Shown piece by piece: positions 3,211 to 9,289 of a stretch of DNA of 64,000 nucleotides. The stretch's first letter is position 1. The number at the start of each line of letters is the position of its first letter. The position numbers and the translations under genes were made by a program. The stretch is taken from contig NZ_FMCU01000004.1 in the NCBI RefSeq assembly GCF_900091525.1, forward strand, positions 248,001 through 312,000. The letters are read 5' to 3'. The notes beneath the pieces were generated by a model. That model ran no database searches and was not told the DNA's origin. It saw only the letters and a program-made list of their open reading frames with translations. The stretch is from Micromonospora matsumotoense. Its GTDB lineage: Bacteria > Actinomycetota > Actinomycetes > Mycobacteriales > Micromonosporaceae.

Positions 3211-4749
3211 TCAGCCGCGCCGCCACTTCTGGTTGGCCCCGCCGGTGCACTCCCAGATGACCAGCCGGGCACCGTCCGCGCTGTTCGCGCCCTGCACGTC
3301 GACACACTTGTTGGCCTGCGGGTTGACCAGGTCACCGGCGCCACTGAGGACGAACTGCTGGGCCGGGTTGCCGCTGCACCTGGCCAACTGGACGACCGCT
3401 CCGTTGGCGGTCGAGCCCCAGGCCACGTCCATGCACAGCCCGAGCGCCCGCACGGTGCCGTCACCGGCGAAGGTCCACCGTTGGGCGTTGGTGCCGTTGC
3501 AGGTCCACAGTTGCAGGTACTGGCCGTCGACACCGTGGGAGTTGGGCACGTCGATGCACTTGCCGGCGTACCCGACGAGCTGGCCGGCACCGCCACCGCC
3601 GGTGGTGGTCAGCGACAGCCCGTACGCGCCGAGGATCTCGTTGACCGGCTGGTAGACGGTGGTGCCACCGGAGTTGCAGTCGCCACCGGCACCGGAGGTG
3701 ACCCCCTGCGCCTGGTTGCCGGAGATGAACGCCCCACCCGAGTCGCCGGGCTGGGCGCACGCGCTGCTCGCCACCAGGCCGTACACCAGGGAACCGGAGT
3801 AGTTGACCGTGACGTCCCGGGCGGTGATCGTGCCGCACCGCCAGCCGGTGGTCCGGCCGGACCGGCAGACCGCGCTGCCGACGGCGGCCTCCGCCGAGCC
3901 GGCCACCGCGGTCGTGCCGCCGTTGTAGGTGTTCACCGTGGGCGTGGCCACCCACGAGGAGTTGGTCTGCACCCAGGCGTAGTCGTTGCCCGGGAAGGAC
4001 GAGCCCCGGAAGGTGCCCTGCGCGACGCCGCTGCCGCTGGTGGTGCTGCCCGCCCCACCGCAGTGTCCGGCGGTGACGAAGCCACCGGCGACGGCGAAGC
4101 CGACCGAGCAGAGCGTGTTGTTGTTGATGACGTACTGGTCGCCGCCCCGGATGTCGTAGACCGGGCGGTACGGCTGCGCGGCGGCGACCGGACGGGCCGC
4201 GTCGGCGGTGCCGGTGGCCTGGGCGAACGCTTGGGCCGAGGCGGTGTCGGCGGCCTGGATCACCACGCTGTTGCTCGCCGGGTCGACATACCAGGAGTGC
4301 ACGGCCGGGCCGGCCCGGCCGGCCGCCCGGTCGAGGGTGGCCCGGGCCCGGTCCAGCTCGGCCAGGCTCCGGCGGACCACCTGCGGCTGAGCGCCGGTGC
4401 GGCGGACCCGCGTGGCGTCGGCGGCCGTGGTCACCCCGACCACCAGGGCCCTCCCGTCCCCCGCGATCCAGGACCCGCCGTACGCGACGCCCAGCTCGGC
4501 CCGGAGCCGGCGCTCGGTCGACGGCGCAGCGGCCTCGACGACCGAGCGGACGCGGAGCTGCTCGTCGGTCAGACCGAGGTCCCGGCGCAGCGCCGCCCGT
4601 TGCCCGGCGGGAAGGCCGGCGGACGGGTCGACGGCGGCCGACGCGGTCGGGTCGGCCGACGGGACGGCCGGCGCGGCCCCGGCGGGCGCGGCGGCCAGCG
4701 CACCGACCAGCGTCGCGGCCCCGAGAACGGCACCCAGGTGACGGATCAT
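3211..4749 (-). CDS. Secreted streptogrisin-like serine protease with ricin B (CBM13) domain
   Basis: 512 residues from the ATG at 4749, which has GGAGGG about 8 bases upstream; a longer frame to 4800 runs through the operator and is rejected. A signal peptide (IRHLGAVLGAATLVGALAAAPAGA) is followed by an alpha-lytic-protease-type propeptide (about residues 30-180, with LGLTDEQLRVRSVVEA), the mature S1E protease with FVTAGHC (His), GNDYAWVQ (Asp) and PGDSGGAF (Ser), and a C-terminal ricin-type trefoil (about 385-512, with QLWTCNGTNAQRW and VIWECTGGANQKW). It should be an extracellular endopeptidase tethered to carbohydrate. A LacI-type operator in its promoter suggests carbon-source control. 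Confidence 0.93.
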   Translation of the reverse strand: MIRHLGAVLGAATLVGALAAAPAGAAPAVPSADPTASAAVDPSAGLPAGQRAALRRDLGLTDEQLRVRSVVEAAAPSTERRLRAELGVAYGGSWIAGDGRALVVGVTTAADATRVRRTGAQPQVVRRSLAELDRARATLDRAAGRAGPAVHSWYVDPASNSVVIQAADTASAQAFAQATGTADAARPVAAAQPYRPVYDIRGGDQYVINNNTLCSVGFAVAGGFVTAGHCGGAGSTTSGSGVAQGTFRGSSFPGNDYAWVQTNSSWVATPTVNTYNGGTTAVAGSAEAAVGSAVCRSGRTTGWRCGTITARDVTVNYSGSLVYGLVASSACAQPGDSGGAFISGNQAQGVTSGAGGDCNSGGTTVYQPVNEILGAYGLSLTTTGGGGAGQLVGYAGKCIDVPNSHGVDGQYLQLWTCNGTNAQRWTFAGDGTVRALGLCMDVAWGSTANGAVVQLARCSGNPAQQFVLSGAGDLVNPQANKCVDVQGANSADGARLVIWECTGGANQKWRRG

Positions 4750-4778
4750 TCTGCACCCTCCAGAGTATTCGATGGACG

Positions 4779-4828
4779 TGAGAGCGCTCTCAGGCAACAA
4801 TCCTGACTAATTGAGGGACAGCTGTCAA
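4779..4828 (-). promoter_or_regulatory. Protease promoter with CebR-like LacI operator
   Basis: Reading leftward: -35 TTGACA (4828-4823), 17-bp spacer, -10 CAGGAT (4805-4800), then the perfect 14-bp palindrome TGAGAGCGCTCTCA at 4779-4792, just after the expected start site and 30 bp upstream of the ATG. The palindrome closely resembles the CebR/CelR operator TGGGAGCGCTCCCA of actinomycete cellulose regulons (established knowledge); which repressor binds here is not known. Confidence 0.75.
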
Positions 4829-4833
4829 TGCGA

Positions 4834-4918
4834 GGTCGCCGGACCGGTCGGCGACCAGGCCATCGGGCCGACCGGTTCCCCGAGCACCCTTCGCATTTCC
4901 CTTGAGCGGCATTAGGCT
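4834..4918 (+). promoter_or_regulatory. Candidate promoter and leader hairpin before the small peptide gene
   Basis: A TTCGCA (4890-4895) and TAGGCT (4913-4918) pair with 17-bp spacing would start transcription about 30 bases before the peptide ATG. A hairpin GGTCGCCG/CGGCGACC at 4834-4856 lies between the divergent protease and peptide promoters. This is a match by eye to actinobacterial -35/-10 elements. Confidence 0.45.
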
Positions 4919-4954
4919 CTGCGCAGTCCGGAGTGGACGACCACGGAGGTGCCC

Positions 4955-5038
4955 ATGAAGAAGATGACCGTCCGTCGTACGAGTGCACTGCGTCTGGTGT
5001 CCGGCGCCCGCCGGCTCTGGATCGAGTGGTGCTGGTAA
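4955..5038 (+). CDS. 27-residue cationic Trp/Cys peptide (signal or RiPP-precursor candidate)
   Basis: A small gene with an excellent ribosome site: GGAGG ends six bases before the ATG at 4955 and the TAA is at 5036-5038. The peptide starts MKKMTVRRTSALRLVSG and ends ARRLWIEWCW. It has two Lys and five Arg in the first 20 residues and three Trp plus one Cys in the last six, so a basic amphipathic segment precedes an aromatic C-terminus. No signal peptide. It is followed after 55 bases, across a strong hairpin, by the TPR gene on the same strand. I do not recognise a named family. Possible roles are a precursor of a modified peptide, an intracellular signal read by the TPR protein, or a membrane-active peptide. 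Confidence 0.7.
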   Translation: MKKMTVRRTSALRLVSGARRLWIEWCW

Positions 5039-5049
5039 CTGCCGGCCCG

Positions 5050-5071
5050 GCGGGCGCCCCCGGGCGCCCGC
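5050..5071 (+). terminator. Hairpin between peptide and TPR genes (attenuator or processing site)
   Basis: Nine-base-pair, all-GC stem GCGGGCGCC (5050-5058) / GGCGCCCGC (5063-5071) with a 4-base loop. It starts 12 bases after the peptide stop and ends 22 bases before the TPR start, a place where it could lower TPR expression relative to the peptide. Confidence 0.6.
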
Positions 5072-5093
5072 CCTCGGCGGCACCGGCCCGACC

Positions 5094-6791
5094 GTGACCG
5101 GCGCACCACCGGGGTACGACTGCCACCGCGACCACGGGCCGTACGCCGGGGTCGCGGATCTGCTCCACCGCATCGCCGCCGACCGCCCCCGGCTGGCCGC
5201 CCGGCACCGAACCGAACTGCGGGCCATCGCGCCCCGGCTCGACCCGACGGCCCGCACCGCCGCCGACGAGGCGCCGATCCGGTTCCACCCCGCCCGACGC
5301 ACCGCCGCCCTGGCCTACGGCGCGACCGAGTTCGTGGCGGCCTGGGCGGGCACCCTCCGACGCCCGGTCACGCTCCGGTTCGCGCACGTCGGCGCGGCCG
5401 ACGAGACCACCCGGGAGCTGCTCGACTCGCTGGCCGGCCGGCTCGGGGCGTACCCGGTGGGACTGGAACTGTGCGACGACGGCCCGGCCCGGCCGGCGGT
5501 CGACCCGACCCCGGCGACCCTGCGCACCAGCCTCGGCGAGAGCCTGGCCGGCGGCTTCTACCACCATGCTGCCCGCACGGGCCGGCACGGACGTGCCCTG
5601 GTCACCCCGGCCGACGACCTGCCGCACTGGTGGGCGTTCACCACCGGCCTGGCCACCGCCCTGGCGGCGCTGGACCAGGCCACCGAGGCGCTCGACCTCT
5701 ATCACGAGGCGCGGACCGTCACCGACGACCCCAAGATCACCATGTCGGCCGCGTACGCCACCGCCATGTTGTACGCCCGGCACCTGCCCGCCGCAGCCCA
5801 GGACCCGGCGCGGGCGCGGCACTGGCTGGAGCAGGCGCTCCGGCTCGCCCGCACGGTCACCGACCCCCGGCAACGGGTGCTGTCGACCGTCTTCTACGAA
5901 CAGGGCGTGGCCCTGCTGGACAGCCGGGCGGGTGAACCGGAGCGGGCGCTGCGGCTGATCGACGACGGGCTGGCCCGGCTGACGGCCGTGCTCGCCCCCG
6001 GTGAACGCCCCCAGGACCTGGCCCGGCTGCGCCACAACCGGGCCCAGGTCTATCTGGCGTTGGGTGATCCGCAGCGGGCCCTGACCGAACTCGACACCGT
6101 GATCGGCCACGACCCCGACAACTGCGAGTACTACGTGGACCGGGCCGCCCTGCACCGGGCGGCCGGGCGGCACCGGGCCGCGATCCGGGACCACGGCAGC
6201 GCCATCCGCCTCGGGCCGCACCTGCCGGAGGCGTACTACAACCGGGCGGTGCTGCACCAGGAACGGGGCCGCGCCGGGCAGGCCCGGGATGACCTGGAAC
6301 GGGTGCTCGCCATCGAGCCCGGGCACCTCGACGCCCGGATCGCCCTGGTCAACCTGCACCTCGGCCGGGGCGCGCTCGACGTCGCCGAGGCGGGGGCGCG
6401 GGCCGGGCTGATGCGGGCCCCGGACGAGCCGGCCCTGCTGTGCACCCTCGGGCTGATCCGCTCGGAGCGCGGCGACCCGGCCGGGGCCGAGGAGCTGTTC
6501 AGCCGGGCGTTGGCCGGCGATCCGGAGCTGGTCGAGGCGTGGACGAACCGGGCCGCCGTCCGGTTCGACCGGGGCGAGGTGGCCGCCGCCGTGGCCGACC
6601 TGGACCGGGCGGTCGCGCTGTCGGCGGCACCGGTGCCCCGCTACAACCGGGGCACCGCGCTGGCCCGGCTGGACCGGTGGGACGAGGCGGCCCGGGACTT
6701 CGCCGACGCGCTCGCCGCACCCGACCTGGACCGGTCACTGCGTCGCGACCTGCGCAGCGCACTCGCCCGCTGCCGCCGTCGCACCTCCTGA
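5094..6791 (+). CDS. TPR protein with degenerate ATPase-like N-terminus, paired with the small peptide
   Basis: 565 residues from the GTG at 5094 (the open frame extends back through the peptide gene, where codons belong to the peptide). The N-terminus has HGPYAGVADLLHRI followed, around residues 90-115, by TLRFAHVGAADETTRELL. The latter resembles the Walker B/sensor region (DDLHxAD) of STAND ATPases but lacks the acidic pair, and no Walker A loop is present. From about residue 200 to the end are roughly ten tetratricopeptide repeats, for example AEELFSRALAGDPELVEAWTN and NRAQVYLALGDPQRAL. It is cytoplasmic, with no membrane segment. TPR superhelices bind peptides, so the neighbouring WIEWCW peptide is a natural ligand or client candidate; this is inference. 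No regulator-type DNA-binding domain is visible. Confidence 0.8.
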   Translation: MTGAPPGYDCHRDHGPYAGVADLLHRIAADRPRLAARHRTELRAIAPRLDPTARTAADEAPIRFHPARRTAALAYGATEFVAAWAGTLRRPVTLRFAHVGAADETTRELLDSLAGRLGAYPVGLELCDDGPARPAVDPTPATLRTSLGESLAGGFYHHAARTGRHGRALVTPADDLPHWWAFTTGLATALAALDQATEALDLYHEARTVTDDPKITMSAAYATAMLYARHLPAAAQDPARARHWLEQALRLARTVTDPRQRVLSTVFYEQGVALLDSRAGEPERALRLIDDGLARLTAVLAPGERPQDLARLRHNRAQVYLALGDPQRALTELDTVIGHDPDNCEYYVDRAALHRAAGRHRAAIRDHGSAIRLGPHLPEAYYNRAVLHQERGRAGQARDDLERVLAIEPGHLDARIALVNLHLGRGALDVAEAGARAGLMRAPDEPALLCTLGLIRSERGDPAGAEELFSRALAGDPELVEAWTNRAAVRFDRGEVAAAVADLDRAVALSAAPVPRYNRGTALARLDRWDEAARDFADALAAPDLDRSLRRDLRSALARCRRRTS

Positions 6792-6892: not shown

Positions 6893-9289
6893 TCAGCTGC
6901 GCAGGCTCCACTGCTGGTTGGTGCCGCCGTTGCAGGCCCAGAGGATCAACTTGGTGCCGTTGGCCGTACCGGCGGCGTTCGCGTCCAGGCAGAGCCCGGA
7001 CTGCGCGCCGGTGATGGTGCCGTTGGCGTTGACGTTCCACTGCTGGTTGGTGCCGCCGTTGCAGTCCCAGATCACCACCTTGGTGCCGTTGCTGGTGCCC
7101 TGCCCGGAGGCGTCCAGGCACTTGTTGCCATAGACCATCAACTGCCGGCTGGCGGTCTGGGTCCACCGCTGGTTGGCCGCGCCGGTGCAGTCCCAGAGCT
7201 GGGCCTGGGTGCCGTTGGTGGTGCTGGAACCGGTGACCTCGGCGCACCGGCCGGACTGGACCCCGACGAGCTGCGCGCCCTGCGTCGGCGGGTTGGTGGT
7301 GCCCTGCACCCCGGCGTTGGCGATGACGGTCTGCGCGCCCGAGGGCCAGTTGTTGTTGCTGACCACGGTGTTGTTGTTGACGACGTTGCCCCGGTCACCG
7401 TTGGTCACGTTGGTGCTGTTGTTGGTCGACCAGTTGTTGGTGACGGTGAAGTTGCCCATGTTCTCGGCGTACCAGTAGTTGGCGGTCGCCCAGGTGCCGG
7501 TGGAGGAGAACACGTTGTTGCGGGCGGTGTAGTAGCGGGAGCCCTCGTCGAAGTAGAGCCCGAACCAGCCGTTGGTGCGCAGGCAGTAGTTCTCGTTGAT
7601 GGTCCCGCCCGGGTTGGCCGACAGCGTGTAGAGGCAGCCGCCGTCGGTCATCTGCTGCATCACGTCGTGGATGTAGTTGCCGATGACCTGGTTGTTGGCC
7701 GCCGTGGTCGCCGTCGAGTAACGCGGCTGGTAGTTGTAGAGACCCCGGTTGGCGTAGTGCTGACTGCCGCCCGCGTCGTTGGCGCCCCAGCCGTAGCCGA
7801 CCGACAGCCCGGTGTACGGCATGTTGTAGACCTCGTTGTGCGACACCAGCGAGGTGTTGACGTAGGTGGTCAGGATCGAGACGACGCCCCGGTACTCCAG
7901 GCCGAGGTCGTGCACCCGGTTGTTGCTGATGGTGATGTTCCGGTTGATCATCCGCTGGTCGCCCGGGTGGTGGGCGTCGGCGCGCACCCCGCCGACCACG
8001 ACACCGCCGGCCGAGTTGCGGGCGATCTCGGAACGGGTGACGGTGATGTTGCTGGCTCCCAGGCCGACCCCGCTGGCGTGCGCGTTGGCGTCGTTGCCGA
8101 TGCCGATGGCGGTCTGCCCGAGGTTGACGAACTGGGAGTCGCTGAAGGTGATGGTGTTGGCGGCGGAGACCTGCACGGCGGCCGGCATCTGGGCCCAGCT
8201 CGGCCGGGTCGCCTCGAACAGCGGGCAACCCTCCTGGCAGGAGGTCAGGGCGTCGGCCGGACGGGCCCAGGTGCCGACGATGTGCGCGCCGGTCTGCTGG
8301 TCGGCGAAGCCGTTGCTGCTGCTCGGGCCGAGCCAGCTGGTGCCGGTGAAGGTGATCCCGCTGAACGCGATGTGGTGCGCCGGAGCGTCATAGCTGCCAC
8401 CGACGTTCACCAGCGACTGCAACTGGGGCAGCTCCACGCTGACGCTGCTCATGTTCTGCCCGGCCAGCGGGATGTAGTTGAGCTGCCCGCTGCCGGGGTT
8501 GAGGTACCACTCCCCCGCGCTGTCCAGGAACTCGTAGGCGTTGGCCAGGTAGAACGGGCCGGCCCGGTGCGGCTTGGACAGGGTGTCGAAGCCGAACGTG
8601 TTGTTGTTCCAGGCCGGCTGCTGCATGGTCAGGAAGTTGCCGCTGATGCTCTGCACCGGCGAGTACCGGTCGGTGAACGAGCCGACGCTCTCCACCTCGA
8701 CCCGGTTCTGGTTGCCCAGGTTGTTCAGGTAGCTCAGCGCGCCGTTGCTGAACCGCATGCCGCTGGTGGTGAAGGTGAAGTCGGCCCGGTTCACCGCGGT
8801 CCGCGCCCGGGTGGCGACCGCGCCGTTGACGTAGAGCTGCCGGCTGTCGAGGCCGGCGGGGACGTTCGCCCGCCAGATGTTCTTCCCGGCGTCGACCAGC
8901 GACCAGCCGGTGACCGCCCGGGCCCCGCTGATCACCGGGCGGGCGGACGCGGCGGCCCGCCACGTCACGGTGTAGCCGTTGGTGCCGGAATCGGCGGCGG
9001 TCAGCCGGAACGGTGCGGCGAGCCGGTAGACGCCGTCGGCCAGCTCGACGACGATGTCGCCGGACATCGACGTGTTGAGGGAGCGCACCGCGTTCTGCGC
9101 CTCGGTCAGCCCGCACGGCTGGCTGGCGGAGCAGGCGGTGCCGGTGCCGGCGGGGGAGGCGTAGAGGGTGGTGGTGGCGGCCAGGGCGGGGGTGGCCGAG
9201 GCGACCACGGCGACCGCGGCGGCGACCGCCGTGGCGGCCAGGCCGGCCAGCACCTGCCTGCGCCCTGTGGGGGATGTCGGGACGGACAC
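6893..9289 (-). CDS. Secreted GH141-like right-handed beta-helix enzyme with ricin (CBM13) domain
   Basis: 798 residues; GTG start at 9289 with AGGAG 8 bases upstream. A signal peptide containing RR (TGRRQVLAGLAATAVAAAVA) suggests Tat export. The catalytic part (about 40-650) opens with TLYASPAGTGTACSASQPCG, continues with RQLYVNGAVATRARTA and then repeated beta-helix coils rich in N/T/V (ITISNNRVHDLG, YNMPYTGLSVGYGWG). This layout matches GH141, a family with alpha-L-fucosidase and xylanase members acting on pectin or xylan side chains (established knowledge). A ricin trefoil fills about 660-798 (GTNQQW and ANQRW repeats). It lies just downstream of the fucose-type catabolic operon, which favours fucoside cleavage. 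The exact linkage is unknown. Confidence 0.75.
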   Translation of the reverse strand: MSVPTSPTGRRQVLAGLAATAVAAAVAVVASATPALAATTTLYASPAGTGTACSASQPCGLTEAQNAVRSLNTSMSGDIVVELADGVYRLAAPFRLTAADSGTNGYTVTWRAAASARPVISGARAVTGWSLVDAGKNIWRANVPAGLDSRQLYVNGAVATRARTAVNRADFTFTTSGMRFSNGALSYLNNLGNQNRVEVESVGSFTDRYSPVQSISGNFLTMQQPAWNNNTFGFDTLSKPHRAGPFYLANAYEFLDSAGEWYLNPGSGQLNYIPLAGQNMSSVSVELPQLQSLVNVGGSYDAPAHHIAFSGITFTGTSWLGPSSSNGFADQQTGAHIVGTWARPADALTSCQEGCPLFEATRPSWAQMPAAVQVSAANTITFSDSQFVNLGQTAIGIGNDANAHASGVGLGASNITVTRSEIARNSAGGVVVGGVRADAHHPGDQRMINRNITISNNRVHDLGLEYRGVVSILTTYVNTSLVSHNEVYNMPYTGLSVGYGWGANDAGGSQHYANRGLYNYQPRYSTATTAANNQVIGNYIHDVMQQMTDGGCLYTLSANPGGTINENYCLRTNGWFGLYFDEGSRYYTARNNVFSSTGTWATANYWYAENMGNFTVTNNWSTNNSTNVTNGDRGNVVNNNTVVSNNNWPSGAQTVIANAGVQGTTNPPTQGAQLVGVQSGRCAEVTGSSTTNGTQAQLWDCTGAANQRWTQTASRQLMVYGNKCLDASGQGTSNGTKVVIWDCNGGTNQQWNVNANGTITGAQSGLCLDANAAGTANGTKLILWACNGGTNQQWSLRS

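Follow-up and report, generated by a model that had tools for sequence, protein, structure and literature searches.

We analysed a stretch of 64,000 nucleotides (nt) from Micromonospora matsumotoense (NCBI RefSeq assembly GCF_900091525.1, contig NZ_FMCU01000004.1, positions 248,001–312,000 of the forward strand), hereafter the window. Within it, a 27-codon gene for a basic peptide ending in WIEWCW is followed on the same strand by a GC-only hairpin and by the gene for a tetratricopeptide repeat (TPR) protein (Table 1). The peptide and TPR genes are a real two-gene unit that occurs in several actinobacterial families, the peptide is under selection at the protein level, and comparison of leader sequences indicates that the pair likely descends from a larger group of clusters with leader–core precursors. 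This connects an unannotated gene of 27 codons with an entire set of precursor peptides that had been overlooked.

Pairing and distribution of the two genes

An initial annotation, made from the DNA letters alone, had asked whether a small open reading frame (ORF) always precedes this TPR family and whether its frame stays open in relatives. In loci chosen by the TPR protein and not by the peptide tail (TPR-first loci), the peptide gene lies upstream in 33 of 33 orthologues (at least 67% identity) that have upstream sequence (7 + 13 + 13), with no stop or frameshift in the peptide frame of any. A search of 101 genomes of the genus gave 8 TPR orthologues with at least 78% identity, the window's own included, and the 7 with upstream sequence all have the peptide; the remaining one (G048) is a 34th orthologue on a contig that begins within the final codons of the peptide gene (CTGGTAA). 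Extending the TPR searches to 330 genomes of the family, 394 of the class and 249 of another order added 26 orthologues (at least 67%), and the peptide was present at 26 of 26.

The reverse approach, a pattern search for the peptide, found it in 18 of 160 Micromonospora genomes, with an intact TPR gene directly 3′ in 17 of the 18. The exception (G021; loci L023, L033 and L052) keeps the peptide gene, promoter and ribosome site, has a TPR gene reduced to around 30 N-terminal residues and carries a rare K3T change in the peptide; L052 and L055 have upstream genes in common, which suggests loss of the TPR gene in place. Scanning a collection of 84,980 species produced 28 matches, of which 26 are real and 2, lacking a stop codon, are chance. 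The TPR gene (product 58–91% identical) follows the peptide in 25 of the 26, and the stretch of the twenty-sixth ends 103 nt downstream. The real matches are from Micromonospora (8), Streptosporangium (6), Microtetraspora (4), Nonomuraea (3), Hamadaea (2), Catellatospora (1), Spongiactinospora (1) and Streptomyces (1), so that the unit ranges over Micromonospora, other Micromonosporaceae, Streptosporangiaceae and one Streptomyces.

Table 1 Features of the peptide–TPR locus and its flanks, numbered from the first nucleotide of the window
Feature	Position	Strand	Description
Flanking gene	3211–4750	−	Secreted trypsin-like protease with ricin-type C-terminus (by eye)
Promoter-like element (predicted)	4890–4918	+	−35 TTCGCA (4890–4895), 17-nt spacer, −10 TAGGCT (4913–4918)
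Ribosome-binding site of peptide gene	4945–4950	+	GGAGGT, 4 nt 5′ of ATG
Peptide gene	4955–5038	+	ORF of 27 amino acids (aa), MKKMTVRRTSALRLVSGARRLWIEWCW; C-terminus WIEWCW
Peptide parts			Proposed leader M1–V15, putatively homologous to MKK[IV]x[VI][RH]KxGxVxLT leaders; conserved tail S16–W27
GC hairpin	5049–5072	+	10-bp stem 5049–5058/5063–5072, 4-nt loop
TPR gene	5094–6791	+	565 aa; GTG start at 5094; no Shine–Dalgarno sequence of its own
TPR protein domains			Residues 1–130, P-loop-less AAA_16-like remnant; about 139–565, TPR superhelix
Flanking gene	6893–9289	−	Secreted beta-helix-type protein with ricin-type repeats (by eye)

Selection on the peptide and expression signals

The 38 distinct loci of the peptides that end in WxEWCW (WCW peptides) encode 29 distinct peptides, and silent changes predominate. 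The ratio of nonsynonymous to synonymous change (pN/pS) is 0.39 over codons 2–21 in these loci and 0.27 over codons 2–27 in the 33 TPR-first loci (32 distinct DNA sequences, 25 distinct peptides); an earlier value of 0.23, from 20 loci with four named records as stand-ins, became 0.27 with the exact TPR-first set. The pattern searches (the 160-genome genus search and the collection scan) themselves fix part of the tail columns. Among the 33 TPR-first loci, M4, R7, R13, L14, G17, A18, R19, R20, W22, E24, W25, C26 and W27 are invariant, and S16 and L21 each change once, in L250. The Streptomyces peptide additionally deviates at R13, S16, G17 and A18. The window peptide, MKKMTVRRTSALRLVSGARRLWIEWCW, is a real gene under protein-level selection.

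The ribosome site that had been noticed ahead of the peptide gene precedes it in 38 of 38 distinct loci. A promoter-like element of the form TTCNTA-N17-TANGCT lies around 42–45 nt upstream of the peptide start. A scan with a 17-nt spacer picked the element in 33 of the 38 loci, the picks in L042 and L142 falling on another stretch; of the 5 loci without a pick, 4 have the same element by eye, just beyond the distance range of the scan, and the Streptomyces locus does not have it. The stop codon of WCW peptides is never TGA, which the peptide search pattern permitted (15 TAA and 23 TAG in the 38 loci; 11 TAA and 22 TAG in the 33 TPR-first loci); read-through beyond the final Trp is perhaps avoided. 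TGA is the main or only stop codon in 6 of 8 related peptide types (described below), and one other type is split 2:2. None of five peptides scanned (the window's and four related ones) reaches the cut-off in NCBIfam or Pfam; the four related peptides had no NCBIfam match and one weak chance match in Pfam (PriS_C, E 0.16).

The hairpin between the two genes, also pointed out in the initial annotation, is present, conserved and covarying. In an alignment of 33 distinct rows, 99.7% of the stem cells are paired; 4 of the 10 stem pairs have two-sided changes, which 2 of 500 shuffles equal, and the covariation score of the stem exceeds all 500 shuffles and all slid controls. Rfam gave no match in positions 4700–5400 up to E 5.

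The TPR protein

The GTG start of the TPR gene at 5094 is supported by alternation of GTG (25 loci) and ATG (4 loci) at the equivalent place. The gene has a ribosome site of its own in 3 of 29 loci.

The predicted structure of the window TPR protein (mean predicted local distance difference test score (pLDDT) 92.1, predicted template-modelling score 0.87) has a superhelix from around residue 139. Among the matches listed, the closest is the TPR domain of OGT (Z 24.2, root-mean-square deviation (rmsd) 6.5, 386 aligned residues); the TPR domain of LGN is also there, and Rap with its peptide comes lower, at rank 50 (Z 17.6). We read the protein as a superhelix of a peptide-binding type that stands on an AAA_16 remnant without a P-loop. 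Weak AAA_16 matches (E 0.0007–0.02) were obtained for four of the five homologues scanned, beginning at profile position 58, 69, 77 or 94 and ending at 161–164 of 167; because the matches lie only past the first 57 profile positions, the P-loop (Walker A) part is taken to be missing. The stretch FAHVGAADE had been described as a degenerate Walker B. It lies at the AAA_16 Walker B region in an alignment made by eye, which makes the description plausible, but the window protein itself has no AAA_16 match in the Pfam profile scan. That scan gave only TPR families above the cut-offs, with no helix–turn–helix (HTH) or other output domain, in agreement with the earlier remark that a DNA-binding domain is absent. 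By eye, the protein resembles STAND–TPR regulators (SARP/AfsR-like and LAL-type) minus their DNA-binding part. N315 and N383, at the TPR ladder position, are Asn in 44 of 44 sequences; we dropped this ladder as special evidence of peptide binding, as it is ordinary TPR consensus.

Related precursor clusters

Distant TPR homologues (30–45% identity) accompany other short peptides, which share the leader MKK[IV]x[VI][RH]KxG[ST]VxLT and have family-specific tails. This motif, which was written after part of the same loci had been seen, occurs no more than 2.6 kb upstream in 58 of 64 distinct distant TPR homologues (counted after removal of 3 duplicate TPRs) versus 0 of 182 control stretches. Of the six misses, three (L212, L213 and L232) do have a peptide, of the LRKIAVRKAGTVRLT type, that the motif spelling does not cover; no peptide was found at L079 (30% identical, in another context), at L224 or in the 861 nt available upstream of L217. 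A profile built from non-WCW peptides only matched the Streptomyces WCW peptide, MRKMTTRKSGTVALTGNSRRLWFEWCW, with E 1.2e-4; three other WCW peptides had E values of 0.0095–0.017 and the rest were weaker, with the best unrelated match at 0.026 among 14,425 background ORFs. Common descent of the WCW peptides and the leader family is likely, given their shared position and the Streptomyces intermediate.

Some of these relatives are also two-gene forms without a protease, with the tails SVIHKG, SPKHVG and PRHCG/PRHLT (loci L163–L184, family f19; f19 is probably Streptosporangiaceae). In other clusters a protein of around 400 aa lies between the peptide and the TPR gene, often with a flavin-reductase-like gene 3′ of the latter (by eye). 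In structural models this protein shows the folds of a RiPP recognition element (RRE; RiPPs being ribosomally synthesized and post-translationally modified peptides) and a site-2 protease. The AlphaFold model (pLDDT 89.8) aligns over residues 4–84 with RREs (lasso B1 with bound leader, Z 10.5, 79 aligned, rmsd 2.1; PqqD, Z 7.7) and over residues 139–338 with site-2 proteases (RseP, Z 9.2; SpoIVFB, Z 8.9; mjS2P, Z 7.3). The assignment is based on VIA-align scores; Foldseek alone placed a lasso RRE first at E 0.08, with nothing at E ≤ 0.001, and in Pfam only PqqD and M50 came up, both weakly. The fusion is found in 42 of the 64 distant TPR loci, with HExxH in 42 of 42 proteins, and the leader-motif peptide accompanies 39 of these 42 loci and 19 of the 22 without the RRE-protease.

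The distant TPR–peptide clusters look like RiPP clusters, and five of them, with RRE-site-2 protease and TPR genes (L218, L219, L222, L227 and L228), look like undescribed ones: each has 5–7 tandem precursors within 2.6 kb (for example, MKKIQVRKTETVRLTSAAQPLYAGGC) with varied ends. These precursors are of the type MKKIxxRKTETVRLTSAAQPLYxGxC, and a flavin-reductase-like gene then follows in 4 of the 5 clusters (by eye).

Strong stems lie 3′ of the precursor in 5 of 8 related peptide types (mean z −3.4 to −4.5, against shuffles that preserve base composition only). Weaker mean z values were obtained for the IHKG (−0.8, 7 loci), KHVG (−1.7, 2 loci), QPLY (−0.3, 26, mostly inner copies) and WCW (−1.2, 38) types. 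Stems between the precursor and the downstream gene of RiPP operons are a familiar means of keeping the precursor in excess.

As a side observation, more-distant RRE–M50 proteins (around 31–34% identical; L116, L119–L126 and L129) lie 3′ of a ThiF/E1-like protein of around 370 aa (by eye). A short peptide with the pattern KxxxxVRKLExxETT is upstream in at least six of these ten loci, and no TPR was seen among the matches listed; the loci form a second branch of RRE-protease clusters. Genes for SARP/AfsR-like or LAL-type regulators are near several RRE-protease clusters (L072, L075, L110–L115 and L124–L126; by eye).

Comparison with known systems

A short precursor with a conserved leader, as in RiPPs, is present in 58 of the 64 distant loci and is recognizable in the Streptomyces WCW peptide, although most WCW peptides taken alone match weakly. 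A co-encoded RRE or modifying enzyme is missing from the WCW branch: its 45 loci are without the RRE-protease, and 18 Micromonospora loci share no gene other than that for the TPR protein.

In the RRNPP regulators of Firmicutes (for example, Rap and PlcR), a TPR superhelix is paired with a short peptide gene. The TPR domain is shared with the unit described here, which is actinobacterial and has no secretion signal by eye; RRNPP membership is unsupported because the profile scan found no HTH domain in the TPR protein.

Daptide clusters contain an RRE fused to a site-2 protease (PMC10036551), the same fusion as in the relatives and one that the WCW branch does not have (0 of 45 loci). The daptide leader is ELExMEAP and the C-terminal Thr is invariant (PMC10036551), whereas the peptides here have KKxxVRKxGxVxLT and no such Thr. 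No daptide-type aminotransferase, alcohol dehydrogenase or methyltransferase was noticed by eye, and no profile search for these was made; a constant TPR protein is instead the feature of the clusters here. The FxSxx/VMAP-associated systems likewise combine an actinobacterial short peptide that has a conserved C-terminal motif with a STAND-type ATPase that has TPRs, and they include a zincin peptidase, an AP-ATPase and, in the FxSxx type, a radical SAM enzyme (PMC7159879). By contrast, the C-terminus here is WxEWCW and the ATPase core is without a P-loop; no radical SAM or peptidase partner of the FxSxx kind is evident, as the 18 Micromonospora loci do not have a third gene in common, and no profile search for these was made. 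The M50 proteases TglG, TmoG and EpeP of pearlins and epipeptides act on short ribosomal precursors (PMC10885120), a protease type that is found in the relatives but is absent from the WCW branch; by eye, the clusters have no neighbouring enzymes of the pearlin or epipeptide kind, and these were not sought with profiles. TMcins are another RiPP class with a site-2-type protease, with no TPR in the excerpts consulted (PMC13252029), and the consulted parts of PMC12710340 and PMC7470986 contain no occurrence of TPR or M50.

We do not assign the unit to the RiPPs, the daptides, the RRNPP regulators or the FxSxx systems, since each of these has at least one defining feature that was looked for here and not found. 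It is real, widespread and probably a variant derived from RiPP-type systems, and our searches of the literature by topic and by motif letters found no description of the pair or of KKxxVRKxGxVxLT peptides.

Favoured explanation and alternatives

With moderate confidence, and from sequence comparison, we favour a RiPP-derived precursor with a dedicated TPR binding partner, forming a minimal, stripped-down branch. The 27-residue peptide would be precursor-like, with a leader of around 15 residues and a nearly invariant tail, SGARRLW(I/F)EWCW, as its active end. It would be strongly translated from its own promoter and, we infer, kept in excess over the TPR protein by the hairpin after its stop codon and the missing TPR ribosome site. 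The modelled superhelix would most likely hold the leader in its groove and present or protect the tail. An ancestral RRE-protease would have been lost from the WCW branch, so that the peptide may work uncleaved or be completed by a general protease. The tail is fixed, in contrast to the variable cores of antibiotic RiPPs, and this suggests a single invariable product, for example, an intracellular signal or a cofactor-like molecule.

The suggestion in the initial annotation of a RiPP-like precursor with a recognition protein is supported by descent, as the relatives have leader-conserved, tail-variable precursors and, in many clusters, an RRE-protease, but not by gene content, as the unit has neither this protease nor a constant modifying enzyme. 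The other suggestion made there, a peptide plus carrier or receptor, may also apply. The unit is independent of the RRE-protease, because 7 of the 18 Micromonospora genomes that carry the pair (G104, G111, G112, G121, G123, G128 and G130) show no RRE-protease match at E ≤ 0.001; for the same reason, we dismissed an RRE-protease acting in trans as a requirement.

Several observations weigh against the favoured explanation. Leader homology is weak for most WCW peptides taken alone, with E > 0.1 for many, and depends on the Streptomyces intermediate and on position. Two related peptide types, IHKG and the inner copies of tandem QPLY, are without a strong hairpin. The conserved Asn ladder is no specific sign of peptide binding, as it is ordinary TPR consensus. 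No third gene recurs in all 18 Micromonospora loci, where neighbours were compared only with each other, and 0 of 45 loci have an RRE-protease match (E ≤ 0.001) near the WCW unit. The sole RRE near a WCW locus is a PqqD-like gene around 3 kb upstream at L134 of Nonomuraea spiralis (Pfam PqqD, E 1.8e-11). By eye, this gene belongs to a separate lasso-type cluster, which lies around 1–3.4 kb upstream of the peptide and was not seen at other loci looked at.

A broader proposal, which we hold only tentatively and consider doubtful as a whole, is a new and widespread kind of actinobacterial peptide system in which a P-loop-less STAND–TPR protein, not an RRE, would be the constant leader reader, the RRE-site-2 protease would be optional, and the two-gene forms (WIEWCW, SVIHKG, SPKHVG and PRHCG) would use an unmodified, fixed-sequence intracellular ligand. 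Should the TPR protein prove to read the leader, it would add a second type of leader-binding module to the RRE. The pairing described here provides RiPP-type precursors with a TPR partner, and the fixed tails speak for defined products and not for variable antibiotics.

A peptide signal with an intracellular receptor seems unlikely to us. The peptide, perhaps exported and re-imported, would bind the TPR protein, which would switch a third protein by contact in the manner of Rap. Such a role would suit the fixed tail, the lack of a detected DNA-binding domain and the predicted fold, whose structural matches include Rap with its peptide. However, the peptide is basic and its N-terminus does not have the look of a signal peptide (by eye), no constant third gene is nearby, and the leader homology indicates precursor biology.

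The end of the peptide gene would also fit an arrest or attenuation leader, in which a ribosome stalled or timed at the peptide end, with its three Trp codons and one Cys codon, would control the TPR gene through the hairpin: the conserved tail runs to the stop codon, which is never TGA, the hairpin is conserved and few TPR genes (3 of 29 loci) have their own ribosome site. We nevertheless regard this as improbable, as positions well away from the tail keep their residues while their codons change silently, and homologous peptides precede a different gene (the RRE-protease), some in 5–7 tandem copies. Trp is absent from several related tails (SVIHKG, SPKHVG and CTDCC) but occurs in CWPF-type tails. 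The Trp biosynthesis gene of a trp-type attenuator was not found downstream, where the TPR gene lies in the 33 TPR-first and in 17 of the 18 peptide-first loci.

Equally improbable, in our judgement, is a toxin–antitoxin or toxin–immunity pair, with a harmful cationic, Trp-rich peptide sequestered by the TPR protein. G021 keeps the peptide gene with only a TPR remnant, albeit with the unusual K3T; gene order and hairpin favour an excess of peptide, contrary to the needs of an antitoxin; and PADLOC reported nothing but PrimPol matches within the TPR stretch. These points stand against the net positive charge and hydrophobic end of the peptide, the near-obligate pairing and the scattered distribution of the unit, in around 14 different surroundings among 18 loci. 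Finally, short ORFs are frequent in high-GC genomes, but the conservation of all 27 codons in an intact frame in 33 of 33 orthologues rules out a chance ORF beside a housekeeping TPR gene, to which we assign almost no weight.

Genomic surroundings and mobility

Only the TPR family recurs throughout the 18 Micromonospora loci (17 loci plus the G048 contig that begins within the peptide), and surroundings are shared by L050, L051 and L066, by L053 and L058 and by L052 and L055. Neighbourhoods are from a simple gene caller, and several gene names were assigned by eye. No phage was found with the unit, and the peptide pattern had no match in IMG/VR viral contigs. The plasmid search gave one record only, a Nonomuraea gerenzanensis sequence of 11.85 Mb (35% identity) that is unannotated at the matching place, and no true plasmid. 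Streptosporangiaceae TPR proteins are about as close to that of the window as many Micromonospora ones are; the tree rejects neither one Micromonospora clade (approximately unbiased test, P = 0.265) nor one Streptosporangiaceae clade (P = 0.323), and we set aside horizontal transfer as a proven claim despite the differing surroundings. The full setting of flanking secreted genes (Table 1) is retained only in close relatives.

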